64,000 nt of DNA from an uncultured Aquitalea sp. (GTDB lineage: Bacteria; Pseudomonadota; Gammaproteobacteria; Burkholderiales; Chromobacteriaceae): NCBI RefSeq assembly GCF_945957525.1, contig NZ_CAMFLA010000007.1, positions 1-64,000 of the forward strand, read 5' to 3'. Under the pieces are notes generated by a model. The model searched no databases. It saw only the letters and a list, made by a program, of their open reading frames with translations, and was not told where the DNA came from. The translations under genes were made by a program, and so were the position numbers. Positions 62 through 62,858 of this stretch are shown in pieces (within the stretch, counting starts at the first letter, position 1; every line of letters starts with the position of its first letter).

Positions 62-74
62 AGGTTGGCCGAAG
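62..74 (-). repeat. uptake-sequence-like 13-mer, copy 1 (exact)
   Basis: The + strand reads AGGTTGGCCGAAG. This exact copy lies between genes, abutting the hairpin just downstream of hslU. It belongs to the dispersed 13-mer family described in the findings. Confidence 0.85.
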
Positions 75-96
75 GCGGCCTCTTGATCAGGCCGCC
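74..96 (-). terminator. hairpin downstream of hslVU
   Basis: GGCGGCCT and AGGCCGCC form an 8-bp perfect stem around a 7-base loop, starting 7 bp beyond the hslU stop. There is no T-run. Instead, the side away from hslU continues straight into the dispersed 13-mer, the arrangement known for uptake sequences in Neisseria terminators. It is the likely 3' end of the hslVU transcript. Confidence 0.6.
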
Positions 97-102
97 AGCG
101 CA

Positions 103-1440
103 TTACAGTACGTAGCGCGCGAGGTCTTCCCGCTCCGAGACTTGCTGCAGCTTGCTGTCGACATAGGCGGCATCCACCGTGAACTGGCCTGCGCGAGCAT
201 CGTAGGACAGTTCTTCCAGCAGCTTTTCCATCACTGTGTACAGACGGCGCGCGCCGATGTTCTCGGTTTTCTCATTGACCTGCCAGGCAATCTCCGCCAG
301 ACGACGGATGCCGCTATCTGCAAATTCCAGCTCTACGCCCTCGGTGGCCAATAGCGCCTGATACTGTCGGGTCAGGCAGGCATCGGTACCGGTGAGAATT
401 TCGGTGAAGTCGTCTACCGAAAGGGAGGACAGCTCGACGCGGATGGGCAGGCGGCCTTGCAGTTCCGGAATGAGATCGGACGGTTTGGACAGCTGAAAAG
501 CGCCGGAGGCGATGAAGAGGATGTGATCGGTCTTCACCATGCCGTACTTGGTGGTGACGGTGGTGCCCTCCACCAGCGGCAGCAAGTCACGCTGCACGCC
601 AGCGCGGGAGACGTCCGCACCCTGGCCTTCGCCGCGGCTGGTAACTTTGTCGATTTCATCAAGGAAGACGATGCCGTTTTGCTCGACGTTCTTCAGCGCT
701 TCGGATTTGAGTTCGTCTTCATTGACAAGCTTGGCTGCCTCTTCGTCCACCAGCAGCTTGAGGGCCTCGGCCACTTTCAGCTTGGCGGCTTTCTTCTTGC
801 CGGCGTTCATGCCCTGGAACATGTTTTGCAGCTGGCTGGAGAAATCTTCCATGCCCGGCGGGGCGAAGATTTCCATGCGCGAAGCCGCGGCCGCAACATC
901 GATTTCAATTTCCTTATCGTCGAGTTTGCCTTCGCGCAGCATCTTGCGGAATTTCTGCCGGGTGGCGCCGTCCTCGGCTTTTTCCGTGGCGTCGGGTTCG
1001 CCGAAGAAGCCGGGGGTGGTGCGCGCCGGCGGCAAGAGCACGTCGAGGATGCGGTCTTCCGCCGCATCTTCGGCCCGTACGCGATTGCGTTTGATGGCTG
1101 CGTCGCGGGTTTCTTTGATGGCCACTTCCACCAGATCGCGAATGATGGTGTCGACATCGCGCCCCACATAGCCCACCTCGGTGAACTTGGTGGCCTCCAC
1201 CTTGATGAAGGGCGCGCCGGACAGGCGGGCCAGGCGACGGGCGATTTCGGTCTTGCCGACGCCGGTAGGGCCGATCATCAGGATGTTCTTGGGGGTGATC
1301 TCACTGCGCAGCGGCTCGGCCACCTGCTGGCGACGCCAGCGGTTGCGCAACGCGATGGCGACGGCGCGCTTGGCGGCGTCCTGACCAACGATGTGTTTGT
1401 TGAGCTCGTGGACGATTTCCTGCGGGGTCATTTGCGTCAT
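103..1440 (-). CDS. hslU: ATP-dependent protease ATPase subunit HslU
   Basis: AAA+ unfoldase of the HslUV (ClpYQ) protease, which unfolds cytoplasmic substrates and feeds them to the HslV peptidase. The 445-residue length is typical. The Walker A motif GPTGVGKT is at residues 57-64, Walker B (FLDEID) is near residue 258, and a large intermediate domain lies between them. The chosen ATG has GGAGA about 6 bases upstream. It follows hslV by about 50 bp, so the two form an operon. The C-terminus ends in the conserved hydrophobic tail (ARYVL) that docks into HslV. Nothing is missing. Confidence 0.97.
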
Positions 1441-1452
1441 GACATTCTCCGA

Positions 1453-1468
1453 CCCGGCGCGCGCCGGG
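1453..1468 (-). other. hairpin between hslV and hslU
   Basis: CCCGGC-GCGC-GCCGGG forms a 6-bp perfect stem in the roughly 50-bp intercistronic gap. It may stabilise or separate the two messages. There is no T-run, so I do not call it a terminator. Confidence 0.4.
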
Positions 1469-1491
1469 CCATGGGGTTCGGATATGCCGGT

Positions 1492-2049
1492 TCAGCCGGC
1501 CTGCTGGGCCTCGTCGCCCAGGATTTCAATCACGTGGTTATGGTTGGTGTAGATGCAGATGTCTCCGGCAATCTCCAGCGATTTCTTTACCACCGCTTCC
1601 GGATCGAGTTCCGTGTTTTCAAACAGCGCGCGCGCCGCCGACTGGGCGTATGCGCCGCCGGAGCCGATGGCGGCAATGCCTTGTTCGGGCTCCAGCACGT
1701 CGCCGTTGCCGGTGATGATCAGCGTGTGGTCCTTGTCGGCCACGATCAGCATGGCTTCCAGCCGGCGCAGCATGCGGTCGGTGCGCCAATCCTTGGCCAG
1801 CTCCACGGCGGACACCAGCAAGTTGCCCTGATGTTTTTGCAGCTTGGCTTCAAAGCGCTCGATCAGGGTGAAGGCATCGGCGGTGCCGCCGGCGAAGCCC
1901 GCCAGCACTTTGCCGTTGTGCAGTTTGCGCACTTTTCTGGCCGAGGCCTTGATCACGATATTGCCCAGGGTGACCTGCCCGTCGCCGCCCAGCGCCACGC
2001 GCCCGCCGCGCCGGACGGAGACGATAGTGGTTCCGTCGAACTGCTGCAT
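1492..2049 (-). CDS. hslV: ATP-dependent protease peptidase subunit HslV
   Basis: Threonine peptidase that forms the proteolytic double ring of HslUV. The 185-residue product begins [12 protein letters not shown]. In this family the N-terminus is trimmed so that the first Thr of the TTIVSV stretch (residue 7 here) becomes the catalytic nucleophile. The conserved GGDGQVTLG segment and the [14 protein letters not shown] region are present. It is first in the operon with hslU. The start ATG is supported by TGGAAAA upstream. In many proteobacteria this operon is heat-shock controlled, and only a weak sigma-32-like candidate is visible here. Confidence 0.97.
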
Positions 2050-2102
2050 AGTGTTTTCCAGTCTATGAGGGACTTGCCCGCGCCTGCGGGCGGAATGTTT
2101 TC

Positions 2103-2131
2103 AATATGCTGGCAGTTGAACGGATTGCAAG
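2103..2131 (-). promoter_or_regulatory. possible heat-shock-type promoter for hslVU
   Basis: On the minus strand CTTGCAA is followed 12 bases later by CCAGCATATT, a loose match to the sigma-32 pattern CTTGAAA / CCCCATnT. The -35-like element overlaps a 7-bp hairpin (GGATTGC/GCAATCC). The match is weak and rests partly on knowing that hslVU is a heat-shock operon. Confidence 0.3.
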
Positions 2132-2242: not shown

Positions 2243-2256
2243 ACTAGCATTGCAAC

Positions 2257-2916
2257 ATGTCTACTCGAACCTACCCTGCCGTGGCGATGCTGGGCACCGG
2301 CGGCGTGCATGTCGTGATGCTGCTGTTGCTGGGCGGCCTGCTGGCCCGGCAGACACCGATTACACCGCCGGAGTTGCCCGCATTGCAGCTGGTGAGCGCG
2401 GCGCAGGAAGCGCCGCCCAAACCCGTAGCGCAAGCACAGCCGCCCAAGCCGGCCGCACGCACACCGGAAACCAGACGGCAGTCGCGCCAACCCCAGCCCG
2501 TTCGCCCCGCTTCGGTCGTCAAACCGGCGCCCGCCCAGGCAGCCGCCCAGCCTTCGGCCAACAGCGTGACGGCTGCACCGCCGGCGCCCCCCGCAACCGA
2601 AGCCGCGCCCGCGCCAGCCGCGCCGGTGCAGGAACCGCTCTACAAGGGCGCCTATCTGGACAACCCCAAACCGGTGTACCCGCCCTTGTCGGTGGAGCTG
2701 TCGGAAACCGGCATTGTGCGGCTCACCGTCCATGTCAGCGCGGAAGGCTTGCCCACTGCGGTGAGCGTGGCGCACAGCAGCGGCTTTCCGCGGCTTGACC
2801 GCGCCGCCGTCACTGCGGTGCAGCGCTGGAAGTTCGTGCCAGCCAAGCGCGGCAAAGAGCCGATTGCCTACACCTTTATCGTTCCCGTGGAATTTTCCCT
2901 GAAAACCAAGCCTTGA
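2257..2916 (+). CDS. tonB: energy transducer TonB
   Basis: Links the inner-membrane proton-motive force to outer-membrane receptors. It has 219 residues: one N-terminal membrane helix (about 10-30), a long Pro/Ala/Lys-rich periplasmic linker (about 45-140), and a C-terminal TonB domain containing YPPLSVELSETGIVRLTVHV and RAAVTAVQRWKFVPA. It is first gene of tonB-exbB-exbD, directly behind a Fur box. The stop codon lies 2 bp before the exbB ATG. The ribosome-binding site is weak. The adjacent siderophore receptor is the likely, though not necessarily only, client. Confidence 0.93.
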   Translation: MSTRTYPAVAMLGTGGVHVVMLLLLGGLLARQTPITPPELPALQLVSAAQEAPPKPVAQAQPPKPAARTPETRRQSRQPQPVRPASVVKPAPAQAAAQPSANSVTAAPPAPPATEAAPAPAAPVQEPLYKGAYLDNPKPVYPPLSVELSETGIVRLTVHVSAEGLPTAVSVAHSSGFPRLDRAAVTAVQRWKFVPAKRGKEPIAYTFIVPVEFSLKTKP

Positions 2917-7946: not shown

Positions 7947-9382
7947 TGGCCGTTACCCGCGTCAAAACCCCCTTCTTGCGCACCCGGCTGGCTGTCTGGC
8001 TGGTTACCTTCAATGCGCTCATTCTCATTGCCATGATGGCCGCCATTTTCCTGCCCACGGGCTGGAAATTCGCTGTCGACGCCATCGTACTGCTCGCCTC
8101 CCTTGGCTTGTCTTTATATATATGGGTGGGCAGCGGCTTCATCTTCCGCCTGCTCAATACCCTGCATCAGCAGCTGATGCAGGCCGGCGACGGCGAACTG
8201 CACCACCGCGCATCGCGCACCCGGGACATGGGTGAAGTGGGCCTTGTGGCCTGGGAGCTGAACGACTTTCTTGACCAGGTGGAAACCTACTTCAAGGAAA
8301 TCAACACCTGCTTCCGCCGCGTCAGCGAGGGCGACTTTTCCCGCCGGCCGGTATCCCAGGCCCTGCCGGGCGAGTTTGCCGAATCGCTCGCCAACGTGGA
8401 CACCGCCATCCAGGCCATGGCCGACAACGATGGTTACATCCGGCGCAACCGCCTATCTTCGCAGCTGGCTTCGCTCAACAACCCGCATCTGCGGCAGAAT
8501 CTGGCCGGCTCTCAGGCCGACCTCTCCACCATCAGTGCCGCCATGGACAATGTGGCGGACATTACCCGCGACAGCGCTCAGGGCGCGCGCGCCAGCCTGG
8601 ACAGTGCCGTGCAATTGACCGGCCACATGGACACCATCGCCACCAGCGTGGTGAGCATGAACGATGCCAGCACCGCACTTGCAGAGGAATGGACCGGCAT
8701 TGAAACCGCGCTGGCCGATATTTCCGCCATTGCCGACCAGACCAACCTGCTGGCGCTCAACGCCGCTATCGAAGCGGCCCGCGCCGGCGAGATGGGCCGT
8801 GGTTTCGCGGTAGTTGCCGACGAAGTGCGCAAGTTGGCCGAGCGCAGCAAAACCACCGCGCACAAGGTGCAATCGGTACTGGGCAGCCTGTCTTCCCGCA
8901 TTGACGACATGAAAACCCGTGCCGGCGAAGCAGGCGGCGTGGCCGAACAAGTCAAGAGCTCGGTGGAAGACTTCCGCAATATGTTCGCTCGTCAGGCCGA
9001 GCAGGCTGATCGCGTATTGGCGCAAGTGGGCCATGTGCGCGATAAATCGCAGGCCTCGCTGCAAAAGGTAGGCCATGTGATGCACAAGCAGATGGTGTAT
9101 CACGCTCTGGAAGACGGCAGCGTCCTGCCGGCCTCACAAGACCTTTCCAGCTGGCTGGCCGGCGATGGTCGCGACAGTTTTGGCGACATGGCGGCTTTCG
9201 GCAAACTCCCCGCCTTGCAGCAAGACACCGAACAATTCATGGCCCAAGCCATGGCAAAAGCTGCCTCCAGCGGCGTACTGGACGAGAGTGGCATCGTGGA
9301 CGCCATGCGTTCGCTGGAAGACAGCAGCGGTCGCCTGCTGCAGCTGCTCGACAGCGTGGTAGAAGAAAAGCACCGCCGCTAA
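7946..9382 (+). CDS. methyl-accepting chemotaxis transducer without a periplasmic domain (CetA-like), degenerate CZB tail
   Basis: 478 residues. Two closely spaced membrane helices (about 15-35 and 43-63) leave almost no periplasmic loop. HAMP-like linkers span about 65-165, and the signalling hairpin has its tip at 263-290 ([19 protein letters not shown]). The C-terminal segment 374-440 aligns with the CZB zinc-binding domain ([17 protein letters not shown], then [13 protein letters not shown]). Only the first His (H377) remains; the Cys of the CxLGxW motif and the HxxxH pair are absent. It probably takes its input from the coupled PAS protein. It carries no CheR-docking pentapeptide at its C-terminus. 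Confidence 0.88.
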
Positions 9383-16785: not shown

Positions 16786-18788
16786 TGCCTGAGCGCGACG
16801 CACACGCGATCGCGCCCTGACTGTTTGGCGGCGTAAAGCGCTTGGTCGGCGGCGTGCACCAGGCTTTCCGTATCCTCGCCGTGCAGCGGAGCAACGGCAA
16901 GGCCGATGGACAGGGTTACCGTCAGTGTCTGCTCCATGGTAACGATGGGCAGCTCCCTTACCGCATCGCACAGTTGCTGCGCCTTGGCGGCGGCGGCCTC
17001 CAGTTCGATGCCCGGCATCAGGATGCAAAATTCCTCCCCGCCATAACGGCACACCAGGTCGCCGCTGCGGAAGTGATCCCGCAAATAGGCCCCCAGCGCG
17101 CCCAGCACGGCATCGCCGCACTGGTGGCCGTAATTGTCGTTGATGCGCTTGAAATGATCCGCATCCACCATCATCACCGCCACAGGGCGCTGCAAGGCCA
17201 GCGAATGCGCCAGCAAGCGCGGCAGGGTTTCGTCCAGATAGCGCCGGTTGAACAGGCCGGTAAGCTGATCGCGGCGCAATTGCTCGCGCAGGCCGGCCTG
17301 CAAGCCTTCGATTTCCGTCACATGCGACTGCAGCGCCTGATTGGCGGCACGCAGGCTGCTTTCCAGCCGCTTGCGCTCGCTGATGTCGTTGACGCCGCTG
17401 ATGACGAGCAACTCGCCGTCGCTATGGATGACAGAGCAGGAAATCAACGCCCAGAAACCGTCGCCGTCACGGGTGCGCAAGCGCACTTCATGGTCGCGCA
17501 CCACTCCTTCGCCGCGCAGCATGGCGGTCACTGCTTCGCGGTCGGCCGGATTCATGTAAAAGTCCTGCACGCGCCGCGCCTCCACCCCGCTCAGCTGATG
17601 CCGGAACAGGCTTTCCGCTTGTGCGTTGGCGTAGATCAGTTCGCCGCCGTCCAAACGGTTCATCACCATGGGAAACGGCGCCGCGTCGGCCATCAATTGC
17701 AGCCGCGCCTCGCTTTCCGCCAATTGGCGGGTCCGCTCCGCCACTTTGTTTTCCAGCTGATGGTTTGCGCGGCGCAGCCAGTCTTCGGCAAACCTGCGCT
17801 CAGCCACCAGCGCCCCAAACACCAGCAGGCTGACCGATTGCACCAGCAGCATCATGCTGGCGGCCGCCACGCCGCTATTGCCCACATCGATGTAATAGCC
17901 ATCGTTGCGCATGGCCACGCCGGCAAACGCCAGCAGCGCAATCAGGCTGGACAGCCAGTAAGCGTGCGACAAACGACTGCGCACCGCCATCCACAGCAAC
18001 GGAATGATAAACAGCGAGGGTAAGGCGGCCATGAAACCGTAACGGCTGTCGGTCAGCAGAAACTGCGCCACCGCCAATACCGTGACCATCACCGCCATCA
18101 AGGCGGTTTCCCAGCGCCCAGCCAATGGGCGCACCAGCGTCGAAGGCTCGGCCACAATCAAATACAAGCTGGCGGGCGTTGCCATCAGCACCCCGGTCAA
18201 CGCCGCCATGCCGCAGGCCATGAAATAGGGAAACCCTTCAAGAAAGCCGCTTTGCAACCGGTATGACCACCACAGTAGATGCCAGCCGGCCGTGGCCATG
18301 CTGAGGCCCAGCGCGCCAACACAGAGAAACAGCAAAACGCGCGACAGACGGAAAAAAGGCAGAACGCCGCCCCCGCGACGACGCATGAGGGCCGCTGCCG
18401 CCAGCGCGGCGACGGTGTCGCCAAAAGACAAGCCCAGCGCATCGGTCAGGGGCAGTGACAATCCGTGCGCATAAGCAAGCGCCGCTCCAAGCAGCAAACC
18501 CGGCCACACACGCCAGCCCCAGCGCATGGCCACTGCCAGGCCCAGGCCGACATGCAGCCAGACCGGCATCACCAACTGGCCCAGACCCGCCAGTTGCGGC
18601 ATGGCGGCAGAAACGATCAGCGCCAGCCAGACGCCCAGGCCGATAATCAGCACCCGGACTCGTCCGTGCAACCATGGCCGCCAGGCAAAAGGAAATGTCG
18701 ACACCCGCAGAGCCCCCCGGTCTCGGTGAAAAGCAGCCGTCAACACCCTGTTGGCAAACCCTGTCGTGCGCTGGCGCGGGCCGTACAT
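16767..18788 (-). CDS. membrane diguanylate cyclase (MASE1-like, PAS, GGDEF)
   Basis: 673 residues. About eight N-terminal membrane helices (about 30-325) resemble a MASE1 sensor, followed by a short coiled coil (NHQLENKVAERTRQL), a PAS/PAC domain (about 355-480) and a GGDEF domain (about 510-673). The active site is GGEEF, and RSGD five residues before it matches the RxxD inhibitory site, so it should make c-di-GMP with product feedback. The first ATG is used; the frame remains open to a TTG 24 bases upstream. It is one of three GGDEF proteins in the window. Confidence 0.88.
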   Translation of the reverse strand: MYGPRQRTTGFANRVLTAAFHRDRGALRVSTFPFAWRPWLHGRVRVLIIGLGVWLALIVSAAMPQLAGLGQLVMPVWLHVGLGLAVAMRWGWRVWPGLLLGAALAYAHGLSLPLTDALGLSFGDTVAALAAAALMRRRGGGVLPFFRLSRVLLFLCVGALGLSMATAGWHLLWWSYRLQSGFLEGFPYFMACGMAALTGVLMATPASLYLIVAEPSTLVRPLAGRWETALMAVMVTVLAVAQFLLTDSRYGFMAALPSLFIIPLLWMAVRSRLSHAYWLSSLIALLAFAGVAMRNDGYYIDVGNSGVAAASMMLLVQSVSLLVFGALVAERRFAEDWLRRANHQLENKVAERTRQLAESEARLQLMADAAPFPMVMNRLDGGELIYANAQAESLFRHQLSGVEARRVQDFYMNPADREAVTAMLRGEGVVRDHEVRLRTRDGDGFWALISCSVIHSDGELLVISGVNDISERKRLESSLRAANQALQSHVTEIEGLQAGLREQLRRDQLTGLFNRRYLDETLPRLLAHSLALQRPVAVMMVDADHFKRINDNYGHQCGDAVLGALGAYLRDHFRSGDLVCRYGGEEFCILMPGIELEAAAAKAQQLCDAVRELPIVTMEQTLTVTLSIGLAVAPLHGEDTESLVHAADQALYAAKQSGRDRVCVALRHQRALS

Positions 18789-19064: not shown

Positions 19065-20378
19065 CTAAGTCTGACTATACAAAGGGTTGCTCAATCGCCA
19101 GTAAGGCTGCTCGGCATGCAAGCGCGACAGCAGCGCATCCAGCTCGGCCTGCATCAGTCCGCGCAAGTGCTCGGCCAAGCCGGCCGGCTCTGCCGCATGG
19201 CCTTCGGCCAACCATTGACCGATGTCGACCGGAGCCGGTACCCGCAAGTAAAGATCGCGCGCGGCGGCGGGACGCGGAATGAAAGCATTGAGCGTGTCGC
19301 GCAAACGGCCTTTGCAATAGTCCTGCCGTACGCGTTTGACCGACTCTGCGATATGTTCCAGCGCGATCAAAGGCTTGTCGTAAGCCTCCGGCGGTATGCG
19401 GGTCAACCGCTCCCAAGCGGCCAGCAGCGGTTTGCCGGCCAGCGCCAGGCTCTCCTGACCGCTCTCGCGCAGGGCGCGGCTCCAGCGTCTGGGCAGGGGC
19501 AGGGCCGCATCCATTTGCGGACAGAGCGCGTCCAGCCGGGCGGCAATGCCCCGCATCAAGGACTCGCGGCGCGCGAAATAGCTGTGTTGCCGGCGCGACG
19601 GCACAGGCAGACCCAGCTTGTCGGCCTCGCGCTCCAATACGCCGCTTTGCAATTCGAACCATTGTTCCGGCAAAGCCGCATCCTGCGTTACCGACAGGTT
19701 CAAACGACGCGCGGTCCACAGCAGCTCCTTGCGCACGGCGCGCTCGGCATCGCGGCAGAAGCGCAACTTCCACAATACCGGCTGGATATACACCGGCTTG
19801 CCGCCGCCGCTTGCCTGTTCTTCCCGGTATGCCGCCATCGCCAGTTCGGCAATGCCGGTGAACAAGGGCGCAATCCAGTCCGCATGCCAGCCCACCGCGC
19901 CTTCGGGATGCAGCAGCACTGCATGTCCTTGCCGCGCCCAATCCACCGAATGCCGCTTGGCATGCTGGCCGCCTTCGCCCGGAATCTGCGCAATGAGGTT
20001 GTTGCGCAACCAGAACCGCTGCATGCGCGCTCCCATGCCATTGACCACGGTATGCGTGGCCCAACTGGCCATGCGCGGGGCAAAACGCGCGGACAGCTCC
20101 TTGTCTATCATCCAGTCGGTGAAAAATTCCGGATGGTTGGGGCCGATGAAGCAGACATGCTCGGGCCGGACGGTCTGGCGCAATCTGGCCTCGTCTTCGG
20201 CCGACACATGCCAGCGCCGGATGTCCGTCAGTCCGGAGAAGCCGGGCAAGCGTCCGAACCACGGCAAATCGCGCAGCAGGGGCAAGCCGTGCAGATTGAG
20301 CCAGCGGTTGACCGGCACCAGACGTCGCATCAGGGCGACGTCTGGTTGCGGCGCAACGAAGGTGGTAAGTCGGGACAT
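19065..20378 (-). CDS. PlsC-like acyltransferase domain protein
   Basis: 437 residues with a lysophospholipid-acyltransferase fold. The catalytic NHPEFFTDWMIDK (HX4D-type motif, near residue 80) and the later HPEGAVGWH (the FPEG-type motif) are present. There is no signal peptide or clear membrane helix. The Met used here has AGGA upstream; alternatives lie up to 45 bases earlier. The role is presumably lipid acylation or remodelling, with the acceptor unknown. It is flanked by unrelated genes on the same strand. Confidence 0.75.
   Translation of the reverse strand: MSRLTTFVAPQPDVALMRRLVPVNRWLNLHGLPLLRDLPWFGRLPGFSGLTDIRRWHVSAEDEARLRQTVRPEHVCFIGPNHPEFFTDWMIDKELSARFAPRMASWATHTVVNGMGARMQRFWLRNNLIAQIPGEGGQHAKRHSVDWARQGHAVLLHPEGAVGWHADWIAPLFTGIAELAMAAYREEQASGGGKPVYIQPVLWKLRFCRDAERAVRKELLWTARRLNLSVTQDAALPEQWFELQSGVLEREADKLGLPVPSRRQHSYFARRESLMRGIAARLDALCPQMDAALPLPRRWSRALRESGQESLALAGKPLLAAWERLTRIPPEAYDKPLIALEHIAESVKRVRQDYCKGRLRDTLNAFIPRPAAARDLYLRVPAPVDIGQWLAEGHAAEPAGLAEHLRGLMQAELDALLSRLHAEQPYWRLSNPLYSQT
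19202..19214 (+). repeat. uptake-sequence-like 13-mer, one mismatch
   Basis: CTTCGGCCAACCA, differing only in the last base. Other one-mismatch copies start at 24685, 28141, 38044, 45394, 51731, 54341 and 62841, all reading AGGTTGGCCGAAG-like on the + strand. Confidence 0.7.
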
Positions 20379-21103: not shown

Positions 21104-21943
21104 TCAAGATGGCGCAGAAACAGTGTCCGTCAGCCCCTGACTGGCGCGCAGCGCGCTGGGCAAAACGCCGAAACGGCGGCGGAAAGCTTCGGCGAAGCGC
21201 GAGGGGGATTGATAGCCGCAGGCAAGGGCGATGTCTGTCAGCCGCTCGCGTCCGGTCATCACTTGTCCCAGCGCCAGCCCCAAGCGGGTATCGGTGAGAA
21301 TCTGACTGAAACTCTTGCCCTCTTCGGCCAACCTTCTGCGCAAGGTAGCCTGGCTGAGCGCCAGTCTTGTCGCCGCGTCTTCCAGTGTCCAGCCGCGGCC
21401 TGGCTCAAACTGGAACATGGCCTGCAGCCGCAGGGCCACGCCCTCCGCCGGCAGAGTCAGCAAGGCGCCGGCCTGACCCTGGCGCAGCAAGGCCAGCATC
21501 AGGCCCTGCCAACTGTGCTCGGCGATGGCCAGATCCAGCCCCTCGAGCGGCGCCGTCAGCGCAGCCATCAAACGCTCCAGCGCGACGCGACTGTCATCCG
21601 AGGGCGTGAATACCGGGGCGGATTGCGCCGCCGCCGCGACCAGTTGGCCGAAGGCGCGGTGAAAACGGGTAAGCCATTGCCGGTCCTGGCTGAGCGTGAA
21701 CGCCAGATAGCGGCCGCTGACCGGGTCCGGCAGATTGACCACCTCCACCTCGCCGCCGGCCGGCAGCACCAGCCATTGACCGGCTTCAGCCTGATGCACG
21801 GCGTATTCGGTGCGGACCTCCTTGCGGCCTTCCAGCACCGCCACCAGCTGGGCCTGCCAGACAGGCACCCGCGCCATGCGCTGGCAGGAGCGGGCGTGAT
21901 AAGTGGCCATGGGGGAGTTCAGTACGGGGATCAAGGTGCGCAT
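21104..21943 (-). CDS. AraC-family transcriptional regulator
   Basis: 279 residues. The N-terminal 170 form a cupin-type sensor region (LPAGGEVEVVNLPDP). The C-terminal about 95 carry two helix-turn-helix motifs, the second with LTDIALACGYQSPSRFAEAFRRRFGVLPSALR. The first recognition helix region (SQATLRRRLAEEG) contains an exact copy of the dispersed 13-mer. Targets are unknown; the adjacent PEBP gene on the same strand is a possibility. Confidence 0.9.
   Translation of the reverse strand: MRTLIPVLNSPMATYHARSCQRMARVPVWQAQLVAVLEGRKEVRTEYAVHQAEAGQWLVLPAGGEVEVVNLPDPVSGRYLAFTLSQDRQWLTRFHRAFGQLVAAAAQSAPVFTPSDDSRVALERLMAALTAPLEGLDLAIAEHSWQGLMLALLRQGQAGALLTLPAEGVALRLQAMFQFEPGRGWTLEDAATRLALSQATLRRRLAEEGKSFSQILTDTRLGLALGQVMTGRERLTDIALACGYQSPSRFAEAFRRRFGVLPSALRASQGLTDTVSAPS
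21322..21334 (+). repeat. uptake-sequence-like 13-mer, copy 4 (exact)
   Basis: Inside the AraC-family gene; its coding strand reads AGG TTG GCC GAA (Arg-Leu-Ala-Glu) within the DNA-binding domain. Confidence 0.85.
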
Positions 21944-27695: not shown

Positions 27696-28325
27696 CTAAC
27701 CGCCTCTTCGGCCAGGCTTCAGCGCCTCGCGCATGGCGGCCGCCAAGCGCAGCGACTCGGGCGATCCCTCCTGCGTCAGCGCCGTCATCACGCCGACGAC
27801 GTCTTCCGGCAGCCGGTTCTGACTCAGCTTGTTCTTCACCTCCACCCGTTGTGGCCGGAAACGGAAACCGACAATGCCGCGTCGCATGGCGGCCAGCGCC
27901 TTTTCCGGCACCGCAGTCATGCGCCAACCCTCCTTGCCTTCAAACCGGCTCACCAATTGCGCCAGCAACGCGTCCAGCGCCTCATCCGCCACCTGTTCCG
28001 CGCGACCGGTCAGATGCGCCACGCGGTAGTTCCAGGTGGGCACCAAGGGCAGGCCGGAGACATACCAGGCCGGCGATACATAGCCATGCGCCCCTTGCAG
28101 CACCAAGGTGCTGTCACTCACCAGCATCGCTTGGGCATGAGGGTTGGCCGAAGCCAGATGCCCCAGCAGGCAAGCCGCGTTGTCCGGGTCGGGCTGCACC
28201 ACCACATGGCTGATCCACGGTTCGCCCTCACCCGGCGTCACCAGCATGGCCAATGGGTTGTCGCCGAGGATGGCGGCGACGTCTTGCTCGTCGCCCGCAA
28301 AAGCGGGGGGAATGTACAGGGGCAT
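27696..28325 (-). CDS. FMN-binding (PaiB-like) protein
   Basis: 209 residues of the split-barrel FMN-binding family often annotated as negative transcriptional regulators (PaiB). It starts MPLYIPPAF, with the conserved LLGHLASANPH, VSPAWY and VPTWNY segments and the C-terminal KLSQNR motif. Most bacterial members are better regarded as flavin-binding proteins of unknown role. It is last of a tight three-gene set with an ABM-domain and an AhpD-like protein (gaps of 3 and 12 bp). Confidence 0.85.
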   Translation of the reverse strand: MPLYIPPAFAGDEQDVAAILGDNPLAMLVTPGEGEPWISHVVVQPDPDNAACLLGHLASANPHAQAMLVSDSTLVLQGAHGYVSPAWYVSGLPLVPTWNYRVAHLTGRAEQVADEALDALLAQLVSRFEGKEGWRMTAVPEKALAAMRRGIVGFRFRPQRVEVKNKLSQNRLPEDVVGVMTALTQEGSPESLRLAAAMREALKPGRRGG

Positions 28326-36745: not shown

Positions 36746-36758
36746 CTTCGGCCAACCT
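36746..36758 (+). repeat. uptake-sequence-like 13-mer, copy 7 (exact)
   Basis: Intergenic copy, CTTCGGCCAACCT, in the 270-bp gap before the ABC exporter. Only a weak GGCCG/CGGCC pair lies beside it. Confidence 0.85.
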
Positions 36759-40406: not shown

Positions 40407-44120
<3,714 letters not shown>

Positions 44121-45796: not shown

Positions 45797-47168
45797 TGCC
45801 CTGACGGCCGCGCTCCAGCGCGGCCGACAAACGCTCCAGGTTCACCGGCTTGGACAGGAAATCGTCCATGCCGGCGGCTTCGCACCGCTCGCGATCCTCG
45901 GTAAAGGCGTTGGCGGTCAAGGCCACGATGTGCGGCTGCCGCGGCAAATCCAGCAAGCGAATGGCACGGGTGGCATCCAGGCCGTCCATTTCCGGCATCT
46001 GCATGTCCATCAGTATCAGTTCGATATCGCCTTGCCGGGCGCGCTCCAACGCTTCCCGCCCGTTGCCGGCCAGCTTCACCTCGCGATGGCCCAGTTTTTC
46101 CAGCAATTTGAGAATCAGCTTCTGGTTCACGGAGTTGTCCTCCGCCACCAATATCGACAAGGGCTCCGTGCTGACAGCCGTTGCCGGCGACGGCCCCGGC
46201 GAGGGTGCCGCTTCAGCGCTCACGCTGGCAGCCTCTTGCGCCCTTTGCGCCTCCCAGGACAGGACAAAGGTGCTGCCCTCGCCCAGACGACTCTCAACGG
46301 CAATGCCGCCGCCCATGGCTTCGGCCAACCTTTTGCAGATGGCCAGCCCCAAACCGGTGCCGCCATACCGCCGAGTAGTGGAAGAATCCGCCTGTTCAAA
46401 AGCGCTGAAGATCTTGCCCTGCTGCTCTTCGGTCAAACCGATACCGGTATCCGTGATGGACACCCTCAGCAGCATGCGATCCATCAGCACCTGATCTTCT
46501 TCCGCACCGACTTCCACCGTAACGCCGCCTTGCGGCGTGAACTTGATGGCGTTGGACAGCAGATTGCTGGTGATCTGCCGTACGCGGGTGGCATCGCCCA
46601 TCACCCAGGCGCTGCCTGAAGGGCGGCGCCACACCAGCTTCAACCCCACCTCGCCTGCCTTGGGCACGAACAGGTTCACCACGCTGTCCACCAGGGCGTA
46701 CAGATTGAACGGCTCGTTTTCCAGCGTCATTTTGCCGGCATCGATCTTGGAGAGGTCCAGAATGTCGTTGATCAGCGCCAGCAACGACGTGCCGCACTCT
46801 TTCAGGGTGGCTACCTGATCATGCTGTTCCTTGGTGAGATCGGTATGAGACAACAGCTCCGCCATCCCCAGCACTCCGTTGAGCGGAGTGCGGATTTCAT
46901 GGCTCATCACGGCCAGGAATTCGGATTTGGATTTGGCGGCGGTTTCCGCGCGCAGCAGGGCTTCCGACAGCTGCGACATCCGCCACTCGACAATCTTCTC
47001 CAACTGGGCCGCCACGGTGGATAGCTCGAAATTGGCCGCATGCAGCTCGCGGCTGCGCTGCTCCAGCAAGCCCTCCGCCTCTCGCCGCGCCTTCTTTTCG
47101 CGCTCGTAGCGGCGTTTGAAGCGATCCAGCTGCTCGGCAAGCCCGGCTTCCTCGTCCTGCCCGCTCAT
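45771..47168 (-). CDS. hnoK: hybrid histidine kinase partner of H-NOX
   Basis: 465 residues. An N-terminal coiled coil (about 10-80) without any sensor or membrane domain is followed by the dimerisation domain with H90 in MSHEIRTPLNG, a HATPase domain (NLLSNAIKF, DTGIGL, GGTGLGL) and a receiver domain with D388 (LILMDMQMPEMDG). The start overlaps the hnoX stop (ATGA), the arrangement of an H-NOX-controlled kinase. It is a hybrid type with no Hpt or output regulator adjacent, so the phosphorelay partner must lie elsewhere. One exact 13-mer copy lies at the end of the ATPase domain (RLAEA). Confidence 0.9.
   Translation of the reverse strand: MSGQDEEAGLAEQLDRFKRRYEREKKARREAEGLLEQRSRELHAANFELSTVAAQLEKIVEWRMSQLSEALLRAETAAKSKSEFLAVMSHEIRTPLNGVLGMAELLSHTDLTKEQHDQVATLKECGTSLLALINDILDLSKIDAGKMTLENEPFNLYALVDSVVNLFVPKAGEVGLKLVWRRPSGSAWVMGDATRVRQITSNLLSNAIKFTPQGGVTVEVGAEEDQVLMDRMLLRVSITDTGIGLTEEQQGKIFSAFEQADSSTTRRYGGTGLGLAICKRLAEAMGGGIAVESRLGEGSTFVLSWEAQRAQEAASVSAEAAPSPGPSPATAVSTEPLSILVAEDNSVNQKLILKLLEKLGHREVKLAGNGREALERARQGDIELILMDMQMPEMDGLDATRAIRLLDLPRQPHIVALTANAFTEDRERCEAAGMDDFLSKPVNLERLSAALERGRQGIRLPSPTP
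46319..46331 (+). repeat. uptake-sequence-like 13-mer, copy 9 (exact)
   Basis: In hnoK; its coding strand reads Arg-Leu-Ala-Glu. Confidence 0.85.
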
Positions 47169-47704
47169 GTCAGCTCCACGGTGAAACGCATGCTGCTGCC
47201 ATCTGCCTTGAGCGCCTCTTCGCGAATGACGCCGCACTCGTGGTAGTGATCCAGCGCCCCCTGGATCAGGCCCTTGGCCAGCTCGCCCAGGCAGCGCGGC
47301 GAGTCATAGCGCAGCACCAACGTCGTATCATCCATGGATTCCACCGCGAAACGCGGCAGCTCCGCCTCCGGGTACAGTTTCAGCACTTCCACATGGATGG
47401 AGTTTTCGATACAGCACAACAAACTGAACGTGTTGTCCTTGCCCACAAGGCTATCCGGATACACCTGCGCAAAACGGCCAAACAGGTAGTAGCCGAATGC
47501 ATGGATCAGCGCGCCGGCCGGCTGCCCGGAGGCGCGCGACAAGGCCCCCACCAAGGCCGCCATCTCCTGGAACGGATAGGTGCCTACCGAGGTATAAGCG
47601 CCGCCGGAGGCCAGATCGGCGTCATCAATGATGTCATCCACCATGTTGGCCGAAAAACGGCTTTCCACCATGTCGAGGAATTCGGTAAAGACCACGCCTT
47701 TCAT
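47165..47704 (-). CDS. hnoX: H-NOX heme nitric-oxide sensor
   Basis: 179-residue soluble heme protein starting MKGVVFTEFLDMVE. The proximal heme ligand is H104 (SIHVEVLKLYP) and the propionate-binding YxSxR motif is Y133-D-S-P-R137. Both align with characterised gammaproteobacterial H-NOX proteins, so heme and NO binding are expected. No distal-pocket Tyr typical of O2 binders can be judged from sequence alone. GGGAGG precedes the ATG. It is coupled to the downstream hybrid kinase by a 4-bp overlap. Confidence 0.93.
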   Translation of the reverse strand: MKGVVFTEFLDMVESRFSANMVDDIIDDADLASGGAYTSVGTYPFQEMAALVGALSRASGQPAGALIHAFGYYLFGRFAQVYPDSLVGKDNTFSLLCCIENSIHVEVLKLYPEAELPRFAVESMDDTTLVLRYDSPRCLGELAKGLIQGALDHYHECGVIREEALKADGSSMRFTVELT

Positions 47705-51893: not shown

Positions 51894-52754
51894 TCAGCCG
51901 CCACGCTTCCAGCCCAGCAACACCACTCCGCCCAGAATCAGCCCGGCACCGGCCAGCATGGTCGGCGTCAGCGGCTCCGCCAGCCACATCGCCCCCCACA
52001 TCACGCCGAACACCGGCACCAGATACGTCACCGCGCTGGCGCGCGTGGCCCCCAGCCGGTCGATCAACCGATAGAAAATCAGATAGGCCACGGCAGTGCT
52101 GCCCAAGGCCAGCAACACCACCGACCACCAGACGGCGGCCGGTGCGGGGGCCTTCGGCCAACTCAGCAAGGCCAAGGGCAACACCAGCACCGCGCCGCTG
52201 AAAAGGCTGCCGGTGGCGGTGACCAGCGAGGGCAAACCCGGCAGCCAACGACGCGCCATATGGCCGGACCAGCCATAGCAGGCGGTAGCGCCGAGCATGG
52301 CCAGCACCGGCCACCACGACGCAGCGCTAAAGGCCGCGCCCCGTCCCAGCATCAGCACCGCCACGCCGGCCAACCCCAGGCCCAGCCCGGCCACGCGCTG
52401 GACGCTCAGCCGCTCGCCCGCCAGCGGCACCGCCCACAACGCCGTCATCAGCGGCGTGGTGGCGTTGAGCACCGAGGCCACGCCGGCCGACAGGCTCAAC
52501 GTGGCCCAGGCAATCAAGCAGAACGGCAACGCGGATAAAAACACCCCGACAATCGCAATGCGCAACCAGTTGTCGAACCACAACTTCATGCCGCCGCGCA
52601 GGGCCAGCACCGGCACCAGCACCAGCGACGCCAGCCCCAGCCGCAAGGCGATCAGCGGAAACGGACCCAGGGCCGGCGCGGCCACGCGCATGAACAAAAA
52701 CGACCCGCCCCACAAGGCGGCCAGCGCCACCAGCAATATCCTGTCCTGATTCAT
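51894..52754 (-). CDS. EamA/DMT-family transporter
   Basis: 286 residues with ten membrane helices in two EamA repeats (LVALAALWGGSFLFMRVAAPALGPFPLIALR and the second around AVWWSVVLLALGSTAVAYLIFYRLI). It is a putative metabolite exporter of unknown substrate. GGAGGGG lies just before the ATG. It is convergent with envZ. Confidence 0.87.
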   Translation of the reverse strand: MNQDRILLVALAALWGGSFLFMRVAAPALGPFPLIALRLGLASLVLVPVLALRGGMKLWFDNWLRIAIVGVFLSALPFCLIAWATLSLSAGVASVLNATTPLMTALWAVPLAGERLSVQRVAGLGLGLAGVAVLMLGRGAAFSAASWWPVLAMLGATACYGWSGHMARRWLPGLPSLVTATGSLFSGAVLVLPLALLSWPKAPAPAAVWWSVVLLALGSTAVAYLIFYRLIDRLGATRASAVTYLVPVFGVMWGAMWLAEPLTPTMLAGAGLILGGVVLLGWKRGG

Positions 52755-55896: not shown

Positions 55897-56685
55897 TCAG
55901 GATTGGCGCTTGCCCAACCAGTAGGACAGCGCGACGAAGGCCATGGAAACCAGCAACAACAGCGCGGATACCGCATTCACCTCGGGCGTGATCCCCATGC
56001 GGATCAGGCCGAAGATATACACCGGCAGGGTGGTGGCACCCGCCCCCGCCACAAAGAAAGTGATGACGAAATCGTCCAGCGAAACGATGAAGGCCAGCAT
56101 GGCGCCGGACAGGATGCCGGGCAGGATCAGCGGCAAGGTCACCCGACGGAAGGTGGCAAACGGACCGGCGTACAAATCAGCCGCCGCTTCGGCCAACCTC
56201 GGGTCCAGCCCTTCCAGCCGGGCGCGGATGGGCAGATAGGCGAAGGGGATGCAAAACACCGTGTGGGCGATCAGCACCGTCACCAGGCCCAGCTCCATGC
56301 CCAGCGCGAGAAAGAACAGCAAGGACGCCACCGCGGTGACAATCTCCGGTACCAGGAGCGGCAGCCCCAGCATGGCGTTGATGGCCGCCATGCCGCGAAA
56401 GCGCCGCCCGCTCATGGCCAGCGCAGCCATGGTGGCGAACACCGTGGACAGCGCCGTGGCGCCGCAGGCGATGATCAGCGAGTTGCGGGTGGCGCGCAGG
56501 ATGTTTTCGTTGTCCATCACCTTGAGGTACCAGTCCAGCGAGAAGCCGGTCCACAGGGTGGCGATGCGGTTGGCGTTGAAGGACAGCGCCACCAGCACCA
56601 CGATGGGCAGATAGAGGTAGACGAAGGCGAACAGCGCCGTACTGCTCACGCCGCGAAAACGCCAGAGTTTTTGCGAAGCCTGCAT
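55897..56685 (-). CDS. potI: polyamine ABC transporter permease PotI
   Basis: 262 residues with six membrane helices and the ATPase-contact EAA loop (LPLLVPEIVTAVAS preceding, and EAAADLYAGPFATFRRVTLPLILPG). It starts two bases after the potH stop codon, indicating coupling. The exact 13-mer copy falls at RLAEA just before the EAA-type motif. Confidence 0.92.
   Translation of the reverse strand: MQASQKLWRFRGVSSTALFAFVYLYLPIVVLVALSFNANRIATLWTGFSLDWYLKVMDNENILRATRNSLIIACGATALSTVFATMAALAMSGRRFRGMAAINAMLGLPLLVPEIVTAVASLLFFLALGMELGLVTVLIAHTVFCIPFAYLPIRARLEGLDPRLAEAAADLYAGPFATFRRVTLPLILPGILSGAMLAFIVSLDDFVITFFVAGAGATTLPVYIFGLIRMGITPEVNAVSALLLLVSMAFVALSYWLGKRQS
56187..56199 (+). repeat. uptake-sequence-like 13-mer, copy 10 (exact)
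   Basis: In potI, read in frame as Arg-Leu-Ala-Glu. Confidence 0.85.
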
Positions 56686-57574: not shown

Positions 57575-58649
57575 GGGCCGCCTCCCGCAACAGATGGAAA
57601 GCACCCGGCTCGGCGGTCAGCCTTACCGTCTGCCCCACTTCGGCCAACCTGGCGGCGCCCAGGCTGTTGGTCTTGCGCACGCGACAGGGCTGACCGTCGG
57701 CCAACTGCACGGTGTATACGGTGTCCACCCCGCGATACACCACTTCGGACACCACGCCGGCGATGCCCTGCCCGTTGCCGGCAATCTGCAGACGCTCAGG
57801 CCGCACGGCCACCGCCGCCAGCCCTTCGCGATGACTGTCCAGCACGGCGGCGGGCAAGCTCCCCGCCTCGCCGAAGAGCAGCTGGTCGCCGGCGATGAGG
57901 CCGGAGAGGAATGAGGTTTCACCGATGAAGTCGGCCACAAAGCGATTGGCCGGCCGGTCGTAGATGTCTTCGGGCCGCCCCACCTGCTGCAGCTTGCCGC
58001 TCGCCATCACCGCGATACGGTCCGACATGGTGAGGGCTTCTTCCTGATCGTGGGTGACAAAGACAAAGGTGATGCCGGTTTCGCGCTGCAAACGCTTGAG
58101 CTCCACCTGCATTTCCTTGCGCAGCTTGAGATCCAGCGCGGACAGCGACTCATCCAGCAGCAGCACTTGCGGATGCGGGGCCAAGGCCCGCGCCAGCGCC
58201 ACCCGCTGCTGCTGGCCGCCGGACAGCTGGTGCGGACGGCGCCGGGCGAAACCGGTCAGCTTTACCAGCTCCAGCATGCTTTCCACCCGTGGGGCAATGT
58301 CGTTCCTGGCCACACCGCGCATTTCCAGACCGAAAGCGATGTTCTCCGCCACGGTCAGATGCGGAAACAGCGCGTAGCTCTGGAATACGGTGTTGACCGG
58401 CCGCTGGAAAGGCAGCTTGCCGGTCAGCGAATCGCCATACAGGCGGATATCCCCGTCGCTGACGTCTTCGAAACCGGCAATCATGCGCAGCAGCGTGGTC
58501 TTGCCGCAGCCGGACGGCCCCAGCAGGGTGAAGAATTCGTTTTCGCGGATGGAAAGCGACACATGATCCAGCGCGACGACGGCATGTTCGCCGTCGCCAA
58601 AGCGTTTGACGACCTGGTCGATCTCGATGGCGGCTCTGTTTTCAGGCAT
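57567..58649 (-). CDS. potG: polyamine ABC transporter ATPase PotG
   Basis: 360 residues. Walker A is [11 protein letters not shown]-loop [12 protein letters not shown], signature [15 protein letters not shown], Walker [13 protein letters not shown] and H-loop THDQEEA. The C-terminal TOBE domain (about 270-360) contains an exact 13-mer copy. AGGAGG precedes the chosen ATG, and the frame upstream has no further support. It is first structural gene of the operon, 82 bp after a short leader ORF. Confidence 0.93.
57638..57650 (+). repeat. uptake-sequence-like 13-mer, copy 11 (exact)
   Basis: In potG, read in frame as Arg-Leu-Ala-Glu in the TOBE domain. Confidence 0.85.
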
Positions 58650-59069: not shown

Positions 59070-60116
59070 TCAGCGGCGCAAATCAGATGGCCGGCGACCG
59101 GTCCAGCGGGCGAAGGCGTGGCGGAAACTGGCCGGTTCGGCAAACCCCAGGCGCTCGGCGATGCGGGTGATGGGCAGCGAGGTATGGTGCAACAGATGCA
59201 GCGCCTGCTGGTGGCGCGCCTGGTCCAGCAAGGCCTGAAAAGAAGTGCCCAGCGCAGCCAGCTTGCGGCGCAAGGTGCGTTCGGACATGTGCATGGCGGC
59301 CGTCAGTTCCGCCACGCTGGCGAAGCGGGCCGGGTCGGCCTGCATCAGGCCCTGTACGCGGGCGATCAGCGCCGAGCCTTCGCTGTTGAGCCATTGCGTT
59401 TGCTGGCGCTCGCATTGCTCCAGCGCCATGTGAAAGCTCACCGCGTCCGCCAGCGGTTGCGGCCGGTCCAGCCATTTGGCCGGAAACAGTACCGCGTCCT
59501 CGTCCGCGCCGAATTGCCCGGCCTGGCCGAACATGGAAGGGTAAAGTCCGGCGTGACCCGGCTCGGCAAAACGCATGCGCACGGCGGTGGGCGCCCAGCG
59601 CACGCCCATGCAGTCGCGGATGATGCTCCACATCGACGACAGGCACATTTCGGCGTTGAACCGGTAGAGATCGGCGTGATAGGCGTAGTCGCAGGCGCGC
59701 AGGCGCGCAGTCTTGCCCTCTTCCGTCACTTCCAGCCGGAAATAGCTGCCCAGCAATAAGGGAAAGCGGATGGCGGTGTCCAGCGCCACCCGCACGGTGG
59801 GACTGACCAGCATGGTGTAACCGAGAATGCCGTAACTGGACACATGCATGGCCTTGCCCAGCAGCAAACCCAGCGACTCGTCGCCCGTCAGTCGGCGAGC
59901 GTTGTCGAACACCGTCAGCTCTTGATGATGGCTGATCAGCCTGGCCGGCTCCTGCAGGCGCTCCGGCGGAATGCCGCTGCCTGCCAGCAGCGCCTCTACC
60001 GGTACGCCGCGCTCAGCCGACAAGGCTGCCGTAGCCACCACCCCGTGCATGGATACGGGGCGGCTGGCCGGCGAGGCCTGGGGCGCAAGGGAAGCGGCAA
60101 CGGGATCGGCGCGCAT
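59070..60116 (-). CDS. AraC-family regulator (OruR/ArgR-like arrangement)
   Basis: 348 residues: an N-terminal about 200-residue arabinose-binding-like domain of the type found in OruR-type regulators, then a C-terminal double helix-turn-helix (VAELTAAMHMSERTLRRKLAALGTSF and ITRIAERLGFAEPASFRHAFARWTG). It is encoded just upstream of and in the same direction as the pot operon, so it is a plausible activator of polyamine uptake. AGGA lies about 10 bases before the ATG. Confidence 0.88.
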   Translation of the reverse strand: MRADPVAASLAPQASPASRPVSMHGVVATAALSAERGVPVEALLAGSGIPPERLQEPARLISHHQELTVFDNARRLTGDESLGLLLGKAMHVSSYGILGYTMLVSPTVRVALDTAIRFPLLLGSYFRLEVTEEGKTARLRACDYAYHADLYRFNAEMCLSSMWSIIRDCMGVRWAPTAVRMRFAEPGHAGLYPSMFGQAGQFGADEDAVLFPAKWLDRPQPLADAVSFHMALEQCERQQTQWLNSEGSALIARVQGLMQADPARFASVAELTAAMHMSERTLRRKLAALGTSFQALLDQARHQQALHLLHHTSLPITRIAERLGFAEPASFRHAFARWTGRRPSDLRR

Positions 60117-61126: not shown

Positions 61127-61198
61127 GACGCTCTCCTGAGAATGCCGCCAGTGTAAGCAGCCGACCGCCTTGCCTCGCTGCGATTTCCTGCGCCAGAA

Positions 61199-61213
61199 TG
61201 CATGCAACATGCA
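61199..61213. promoter_or_regulatory. inverted repeat in the EamA/Lrp intergenic region
   Basis: TGCATG-CAA-CATGCA, perfect 6-bp arms, 33 bp upstream of the Lrp-type start and 73 bp upstream of the transporter start. Confidence 0.55.
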
Positions 61214-61245
61214 ATTTTCAACACATTGACGCAGGAATCCTGAGC

Positions 61246-61719
61246 ATGCCGCCCGACCACCCGCTGGACGCCTACGACCGCAAACTGCTGGCGCTGATGC
61301 AAGAGGACGCCCGCCGCACCCATGACGCCTTGGCCGAAGCGGTCAATCTGTCGCCCACTGCGGTCACCCGCCGCCTGAAACGCCTGCGCGAGGCCGGCCA
61401 TATCCGCCGAGAAGTGGCGCTGGTGGACCCGGCACTGCTGGGCCGCAGCCTGCGGCTGGTGGTGAACGTGATTCTAGAACGGGAACAGACGGCGCTGGTG
61501 GATGCGTTCAAGGCCGCCATCCGCGCCGCGCCGGAGGTGGTGGAGTGTTACCACGTGACAGGGCGGCCTGATTTTGTGCTGGTGGTGCTGGTGCGCGACA
61601 TGGCGGACTACGAGCGCTTTGCCCGTCAGCACCTGATGGGCAACGACAATGTGCGGGAATTCGAATCGCTGGTGGTTATGGAAACCACCAAATACAGCAC
61701 CGCCGTGCCACAGGACTGA
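61246..61719 (+). CDS. Lrp/AsnC-family transcriptional regulator
   Basis: 157 residues: winged helix (DALAEAVNLSPTAVTRRLKRLREAGHI) and RAM domain (PEVVECYHVTGRPDFVLVVLVRDM). The chosen ATG has AGGA 9 bases upstream; one 48 bases earlier lies in the operator. It is the probable regulator of the divergent EamA transporter. The 280 bp after it, up to the CBS gene, show no gene. Confidence 0.9.
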   Translation: MPPDHPLDAYDRKLLALMQEDARRTHDALAEAVNLSPTAVTRRLKRLREAGHIRREVALVDPALLGRSLRLVVNVILEREQTALVDAFKAAIRAAPEVVECYHVTGRPDFVLVVLVRDMADYERFARQHLMGNDNVREFESLVVMETTKYSTAVPQD

Positions 61720-61999
61720 GCGCCGCCGGCAAAAGCCCGCGAGCCATTCCGCCAAGGCGCGCCGGCGCAGGCAGCGCACGGCCAGGTATCTCAACGCCGG
61801 TGCAGGTTTTTCAAGCGGGCCTGAAGCGGCCGGCCTGGGTGGACATCCACCAGGTCAGGCGGATCGCGCGGCGTTTTCCCCGCTTGCGTCCGCGCCCAAA
61901 CGAAAACAGCTGCGAAAGCGCCGCAACCCTCATGGATGCGCGTTCCGCAGCCGCTTCCCTTACCGCCAATGCCAGGCGCGACAGCCTGTAAGCCGGCTC

Positions 62000-62602
62000 T
62001 TAACCTTCATGCAGCAGCGCGTGCTGTATCTCCGACAAGGCCTGCGGCACGCGGATGAAATTCAGCGGCATGCCCAGCCGGCGCGCCATGTGCGAGGTGG
62101 AAAACAGGCCGCAAAGCTGATAGTGGCCGCTGCTGACATCCAGCTCGGCCACCAGCGCGTGCTGACGGCCCATTTTCTTCAACGTGGCCACCATATGGCC
62201 CACTGTCGCGTGCGACACATCTGCATAGGACAGCATTTCTAGCTCGGTGCGGGTGCTCATCACATCGCGCACCAGCACGTCATGATGACGCTTGCCATGT
62301 TCCTGCATGCGCTGCACCGGCCGTTCGCCCAGAATATCCGACGCGGTGATGATGCCCACCAGCCGGCTTTCGTCGTCCTGCACAAACAGCAGGCGGATAC
62401 CACGGCTCACCATCAGGTTGTGCGCCACGCGCAGTGGCTCGTCCTGATCAATGCTGACCGGATCCACCACGCGCAGGTCCGTCATCACCTCCAGCGCCGG
62501 GCTGCTCAGGTTGATGGGCCGCAAGGGCCGTTGGTCCAAATGAATGAGGTCGGTATGCTTGGGCATGGGCATGCTGGGAAGCGGCTGAAATGTGTTTTCC
62601 AT
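62000..62602 (-). CDS. CBS-domain protein
   Basis: 200 residues. Two CBS motifs (about 40-105, VMTDLRVVDPVSIDQDEPLRVAHNLMVSRGIRLLFV; and about 120-185, DVMSTRTELEMLSYADVSHATVGHMVATLKKMGRQHALV) form a likely adenine-nucleotide-sensing Bateman module, with no fused effector. GGAGAGAGA lies before the ATG. Target unknown. Confidence 0.87.
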   Translation of the reverse strand: MENTFQPLPSMPMPKHTDLIHLDQRPLRPINLSSPALEVMTDLRVVDPVSIDQDEPLRVAHNLMVSRGIRLLFVQDDESRLVGIITASDILGERPVQRMQEHGKRHHDVLVRDVMSTRTELEMLSYADVSHATVGHMVATLKKMGRQHALVAELDVSSGHYQLCGLFSTSHMARRLGMPLNFIRVPQALSEIQHALLHEG

Positions 62603-62858
62603 GTTCTCTCTCCGGCTTGGCTTGATGGCGTGCGATGATCCGGCCGATGCCCGCCGCAAGACGCGCTGGCGCGCCCTGCCGGGCTCGATCGGCACTCCCG
62701 GCCCCCTCCCGGCCGGGTTTGCGGCAAACCGGCGGCTGTGCAGCGGGCCGGTTTGAACGCGATGAGGGTCAAGCTACCCGGATGGGCATTGCTGACCTTC
62801 CGATTTTCATTCTAGGCAGGATTTTCAATCCGCAAGCACCAAGTTGGCCGAAGACGGT

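Follow-up and report, generated by a model that had tools for sequence, protein, structure and literature searches.

A candidate DNA uptake sequence with three dialects in Chromobacteriaceae and a ComP-like pilin as its probable receptor

ComP is the receptor of the DNA uptake sequence (DUS) of Neisseria, and the same self-tag principle for uptake operates in Pasteurellaceae, where the uptake signal sequence (USS) is an unrelated word in another bacterial order and a different candidate receptor pilin (PpdA/ComN) has been proposed. Here we analyze a word of this kind found in a 64,000-nucleotide stretch (the window) of an uncultured Aquitalea sp. of the Chromobacteriaceae (contig NZ_CAMFLA010000007.1). 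In searchable papers a DUS with ComP has been described only in Neisseriaceae; here three dialects are reported in the sister family. Frye et al. (PMC3630211) give eight Neisseriaceae dialects, all with CTG at positions +6 to +8, report five genomes of this sister group as having no obvious DUS, find no obvious DUS in Pseudogulbenkiania and Laribacter, and place the origin of DUS after the split from C. violaceum, for which they note neither an obvious word nor ComP. In our literature search, which left preprints and most subscription papers uncovered, neither the present word nor any DUS of Chromobacteriaceae was found described.

A sequence-only reading of the window had proposed that a dispersed 13-mer, AGGTTGGCCGAAG, is an uptake sequence. 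We consider it highly probable that the word is a DUS of a new dialect group, with a ComP-type pilin as its probable receptor. In the genome that holds the window (4,045,770 bases in 35 contigs), the 13-mer occurs 339 times (155 and 184 copies by strand) and its 12-mer AGGTTGGCCGAA 197 and 220 times by strand, and each has one occurrence when the same word is read backwards, which served as control. The degenerate form GTTGGCCGAR is present in 1,386 copies, as compared with 42 for the reversed word; the genome-wide count is thus at least 33-fold over this control and not near expectation.

The exact form of the word was studied in a 459-kb sample of this genome, consisting of 20 stretches (L111-L130) and the window and covering six of the 35 contigs. 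For the G form of the core, GTTGGCCGAA, 169 copies were counted against 1.7 predicted by an order-3 Markov model, and for the T form, GTTTGCCGAA, 68 against 1.8. Apart from the G-to-T change, which was seen 9 times, each single mismatch inside the core numbers 0-3, compared with 61 exact 13-mers; change is permitted at positions 1-2 and 13 of the 13-mer. These mismatch and flank counts indicate that the rigid unit is GTT[G/T]GCCGAA, with a soft A-A-G before it and a soft G after it; the 13-mer is therefore an over-represented word, as had been claimed, but slightly mis-framed, the rigid unit being a 10-base core. All 169 copies of GTTGGCCGAA have distinct flanks, and no more than 3 bases away from the core the flank information has dropped to background level, indicating that the word is not a copied element. 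The G and T forms coexist in this genome, and the T form was not evident from single-mismatch counts in samples of four other word-carrying genomes. The two-form core recalls Simonsiella, which carries two DUS dialects (PMC3630211).

In the window itself, 11 exact copies of the 13-mer were confirmed at the start positions given by the sequence-only reading, which had also listed at least eight one-mismatch copies, of which we counted nine. In 100 dinucleotide shuffles, exact and one-mismatch copies averaged 0.10 with a maximum of 2, so that the excess is real; these shuffles, together with the reversed-word counts, rule out chance. The window carries 31 copies of GTT[G/T]GCCGAA, and all 20 exact or one-mismatch 13-mers are among them. 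An Rfam scan of the window at the gathering threshold gave no match. The copies are the following, intergenic calls being made by a simple codon-based gene caller built for the analysis:

62..74, + strand, exact 13-mer AGGTTGGCCGAAG, intergenic
2553..2562, - strand, 10-mer core GTTGGCCGAA
6546..6558, - strand, exact 13-mer, intergenic
8374..8383, + strand, core, T variant GTTTGCCGAA
9197..9206, - strand, core, T variant GTTTGCCGAA
13457..13469, - strand, exact 13-mer
17783..17795, - strand, one-mismatch 13-mer (T variant of core)
19202..19214, - strand, one-mismatch 13-mer
21322..21334, - strand, exact 13-mer
21643..21652, + strand, 10-mer core GTTGGCCGAA
24685..24697, + strand, one-mismatch 13-mer
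28141..28153, + strand, one-mismatch 13-mer
32258..32270, - strand, exact 13-mer
33617..33626, + strand, 10-mer core GTTGGCCGAA
34911..34920, - strand, 10-mer core GTTGGCCGAA
35052..35064, + strand, exact 13-mer
36746..36758, - strand, exact 13-mer, intergenic
38044..38056, + strand, one-mismatch 13-mer
40793..40805, - strand, exact 13-mer, within a metH-like gene
43276..43285, - strand, core, T variant GTTTGCCGAA
45394..45406, + strand, one-mismatch 13-mer (T variant of core)
46319..46331, - strand, exact 13-mer, within a hybrid histidine kinase gene
47645..47654, + strand, 10-mer core GTTGGCCGAA
51731..51743, + strand, one-mismatch 13-mer
52153..52162, - strand, 10-mer core GTTGGCCGAA
54341..54353, + strand, one-mismatch 13-mer
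56187..56199, - strand, exact 13-mer
57638..57650, - strand, exact 13-mer
59136..59145, - strand, core, T variant GTTTGCCGAA
60731..60740, - strand, 10-mer core GTTGGCCGAA
62841..62853, + strand, one-mismatch 13-mer, intergenic

Beyond the window, copies were found in each sampled stretch of the six contigs and not at one locus, on both strands and both in genes and between them, in agreement with what had been noted for the window. The 237 core copies of the 459-kb sample (G and T forms) divide into 123 on the + strand and 114 on the - strand, and the GTTGGCCGAR totals for the whole genome, taken over contigs that are unordered with respect to replication, into 681 and 705. The widest gap between core copies is 7,686 bases, a value as small being reached by random placement in 2% of trials. 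The gene caller predicted 425 genes in the sample (87.0% coding), and 51 of the 237 copies are intergenic, more than the 13.0% expected (p = 0.0002); among the 186 genic copies, 101 lie in the sense frame that reads Leu-Ala-Glu. When neighbours at most 40 bases apart were collected from samples of ten word-carrying genomes, 41 of 42 close pairs were in inverted orientation (24 +-, 17 -+, one --, no ++), and some of these form hairpins followed by T runs. Frye et al. (PMC3630211) describe inverted DUS pairs, linked to terminators, in all of the DUS genomes they studied.

A survey of 61 genomes of Chromobacteriaceae identified the word in 23, in three dialects ending GCCGAA, GCCGAG and GCCGCA. 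Dialect D1, AGGTTGGCCGAA(G/C), is carried by eight genomes, D2, AGGTTGGCCGAG(C), by two (G012 and G021), and D3, AGGTTGGCCGCA, by 13, all of genus g5. The genome of the window belongs to genus g1, which includes Aquitalea magnusonii and A. palustris, while g7 is the Chromobacterium group. Together with this genome, nine others have high GTTGGCCGAR counts: G011 (2,223), G021 (2,017), G018 (1,872), G012 (1,668), G014 (1,258), G010 (1,152), G019 (942), G020 (744) and G026 (238; 84% complete). The nine other g1 genomes have 26-64 copies (reversed word 15-47), and 19 g7 genomes show a mild excess (31-93, reversed 13-42). The excess in G024 (P. purpuratum; 154 versus 34 reversed) and in G033 (a Paludibacterium metagenome-assembled genome; 130 versus 28), and more weakly that in g7, may be what is left of a tag in decay or may stem from codon usage. 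The D3 word GTTGGCCGCA occurs 1,871-2,895 times in 13/13 g5 genomes (reversed 4-14) and 8-58 times elsewhere in the family. Outside the family we found no carrier in the order, with maxima of 26 copies of GGTTGGCCGAR among 386 sampled genomes and 19 of GGTTGGCCGCA among 291.

Twenty named records were also counted for GTTGGCCGAR, a count of which the D3 word is not part. The word is abundant in Paludibacterium denitrificans dN18-1 (1,872) and Neisseriaceae bacterium JH1-16 (2,223, a count identical to that of G011), and a P. purpuratum record has 154 copies (reversed 34). Four Aquitalea records (41-64, reversed 28-40) and six Chromobacterium records (48-90, reversed 23-42) are without the word at carrier level, and the seven remaining records have 3-78 copies (reversed 11-43). 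Attribution of the word to a 'Chromobacterium lineage', as first put forward, thus holds at the level of the family but not of the genus. A search for enriched 10-mers in eight genomes without the word (G001, G004, G016, G032, G024, G033, G070 and G075; 40-100 kb each, small samples from which a sparse or different tag could escape) gave a best score of 37 (G070), the weakest sample of a carrier scoring 83. The 80-kb sample of G070 (L291-L294), of the Chromobacterium group, contains 7-9 copies of another word, around GAAATGCTCATGTACC, set in 6-8 contexts.

When compared with the Neisseriaceae DUS, the present words are alike in their length of 10-12 bases, in their hundreds to thousands of copies on both strands, in their inverted terminator-like pairs, in the distribution of dialects by clade and in the occurrence of a comP orthologue in the same genome. 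They are unlike it in having CCG, in all three dialects, where Neisseriaceae have CTG, and D2 has G at +10, where all described dialects have A. The change that separates D3 from D1, A to C at +9, is one of the two steps between king3DUS and kingDUS. The 9/12 match of D1 to simDUS, pointed out in the sequence-only reading, is correct, and mucDUS is matched equally at 9/12; since random or permuted words match any of the eight dialects as well in about 1% of trials (offsets and both strands included), this is only modest evidence by itself. Homology of the D1 word with the simDUS and mucDUS words appears likely.

Presence of a competence pilin had been named as a check, and a pilin resembling ComP in sequence and fold is indeed present in the window's genome. 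ComP-like pilins occur in 57/61 family genomes; in genus g9 (G017, G025, G030 and G034) no ComP orthologue was detected, the best profile match being at most 70 bits, and ComEC and DprA are present. A PDB sequence search with the comP-like product of the window's genome returned three ComP structures as its top three matches (2m3k, 5hz7 and 2nba), whereas searches with the three further pilins that share its Pfam domain in this genome did not list these structures at E 0.1. The same three structures are the top three Foldseek matches of its model (predicted local distance difference test, pLDDT, 90.6), with 5hz7 at 1.8e-6. The Pfam ComP_DUS match (41.0 bits, cut-off 27.3) is not specific, because the three other pilins also pass. 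Sequence alignments show a 'TST.WP.LP' segment common to this protein and the ComP of N. meningitidis and N. subflava. Two cysteines follow residue 60 in 56 of the 57 ComP-like proteins, and four in one protein from a genome without the word; having two cysteines and not four leaves them with neither a second disulfide nor a DD region, in contrast to the four cysteines and DD region of Neisseria ComP (PMC4906244). The CCG core and the absence of the DD region thus point to a variant working like DUS/ComP rather than a member of the CTG/DD class. The G075 comP-like match was considered as a pseudogene because of an in-frame TGA, which was rejected, as the open reading frame retains both cysteines.

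In the alignment of the 57 ComP-like proteins (23 from genomes with the word, 34 from genomes without), the beta1-beta2 loop pattern N-x-D-x-x-[E/Y/K] is found in 22/23 of the former (the exception being G018) and 0/34 of the latter, and K or R at the residue-58 site, in the alpha1-beta1 loop, likewise in 22/23 (the exception, with T, being the window's genome) and 0/34. Numbered by the protein of the window's genome, the 13 best separating columns include residues 84, 86, 87, 88 and 90, which the model places in the beta1-beta2 loop, and 58, 60 and 62 of the alpha1-beta1 loop, together with 74, 96, 105, 107 and 118. N. subflava ComP contacts DNA mainly through its beta1-beta2 loop and DD region, with a small share taken by the alpha1-beta1 loop (PMC4906244). 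Genus g5 was at background for D1 and D2 when the loop pattern was noticed in its protein; three g5 genomes were sampled for this reason, and D3 was then found. This expectation, which only the order of analysis records, was that a tag would be present and did not extend to its sequence.

In the window's genome, the comP-like gene closes a series of minor-pilin genes; the names fimT, pilV, pilW and pilX of the others were assigned from the order of the genes and the N-terminal sequences of their products. GRHR forms the end of the FimT-like protein. For FimT, the reported DNA-binding motif is GRxR, and binding is reported to be without sequence selectivity (PMC8897410). ComEC is encoded in 59/61 and DprA in 61/61 family genomes.

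By analogy with Neisseria, a ComP-type minor pilin on a type IV pilus would most likely bind extracellular DNA that bears the unit of the window's organism, (A)AG-GTT[G/T]GCCGAA-G, or in related genera the sister dialects ending GAG and GCA. Retraction of the pilus would pull this DNA in, and FimT of the same operon would contribute unspecific binding. Entry would proceed via ComEC, and DprA would aid recombination. Biased uptake followed by recombination could then slowly build up the word across the genome, with an excess in intergenic DNA, at hairpin pairs and in the one coding frame, reading Leu-Ala-Glu, that is tolerated.

Counts, dispersal and the presence of the pilin all support the uptake-sequence reading, with the uptake function itself resting on this analogy. 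Two points limit this support. ComEC and DprA are also encoded in genomes without the word and in controls such as E. coli, and thus permit but do not prove competence; and the separating columns were chosen post hoc among related species. When counted by lineage, the loop pattern is present in about 6/7 lineages with the word and 0/4 without (p = 0.015). An uptake word read by another minor pilin of the operon (FimT-, PilV-, PilW- or PilX-like) is improbable: these pilins adjoin in the window's genome and diverge together from the examined Aquitalea congeners, and the GRHR end of the FimT-like protein fits the reported motif, but FimT binding is described as unselective (PMC8897410), and it is the ComP-like pilin that matches the sequence-specific receptor and whose DNA-contact loop tracks the word, although it is the sole operon pilin that was compared with known structures and given a site analysis.

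Chi and KOPS (FtsK-orienting polar sequences) are genome-wide short oligomers, and a Chi-like site, a segregation signal or a terminator half would account for hairpin-forming inverted pairs, some followed by T runs. We regard such a maintenance or transcription signal as very improbable, since only 14/237 copies of the 459-kb sample sit in close pairs, strand totals over the unordered contigs are balanced, and the word varies by genus, stays below carrier level in congeners that also have ComEC and DprA, and tracks ComP loop residues. A dispersed mobile or repetitive extragenic palindromic (REP)-like repeat, or an artefact of codon usage, deserves almost no credence: more than half of the genic copies do read Leu-Ala-Glu in one frame, but flanks are not conserved past about 3 bases, intergenic DNA is enriched in copies, the reversed controls occur much less often and congeners show no such excess. 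The three dialects with their matching receptor candidates, and relatives that lack the word and keep a related pilin, offer natural pairs for studying how DNA might be read without the DD region and the gain or loss of self-recognition; if the word does act as an uptake tag, it could also guide the design of transforming DNA for these bacteria.

In a PolA tree of 29 genomes (up to 774 residues, midpoint root; G018, whose gene is broken in the assembly, was omitted), the deepest split has D1 genomes to either side, and the window's genome is sister to the other Aquitalea (support 89/79). The label 'without word' changes four times on it, three of these forced by well-supported branches. This fits ancestral presence of the word with several losses, the root being a drawing choice and repeated gain a possible alternative. 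At orthologous positions, where few sites were covered (0-6 per target, some counted twice), the same DUS was present at 3/4 in G018 and 1/5 in G001, and at 0/2 in G010, G014 and G004, 0/6 in G032 and 0/1 in G021, with none covered in G011. We would give an even chance to a joint reading in which DUS uptake predates Neisseriaceae, the ComP of the ancestor shared with Chromobacteriaceae read a C-[T/C]-G-centred word without a DD region, the DD region and CTG were added later in Neisseriaceae, and Chromobacteriaceae underwent diversification into three dialects and at least three losses, with the receptor DNA loop drifting after loss of the word. The other Aquitalea would then represent one loss, possibly via a foreign minor-pilin cassette.

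Genes flanking the minor-pilin operon are 87-90% identical between the window's genome and the congener loci L056, L061 and L063, while the comP-like gene is 44-48% identical to these and the fimT-, pilW- and pilX-like genes 35-51%; for the Aquitalea congeners examined, the values are 49-51% (fimT-like), 38-44% (pilX-like) and 43-48% (comP-like). Extra polA 3' fragments, with 66-70% identity to PolA of the window's genome, lie at most 3 kb from comP in two Aquitalea congeners:

G004:C1:3847492-3847689, second polA 3' fragment
G006:C17:213152-213364, second polA 3' fragment

Divergence of the minor pilins between conserved flanks, together with these fragments, thus suggests that the cassette may have been exchanged, as if carried in with a foreign piece of polA. 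In the window's genome, the comP locus (8 kb) carries six core copies on the + strand and none on the - strand (L034:833-3815); five of the six lie between fimT and comP and one falls within comP, the density being about three times that of the genome sample.

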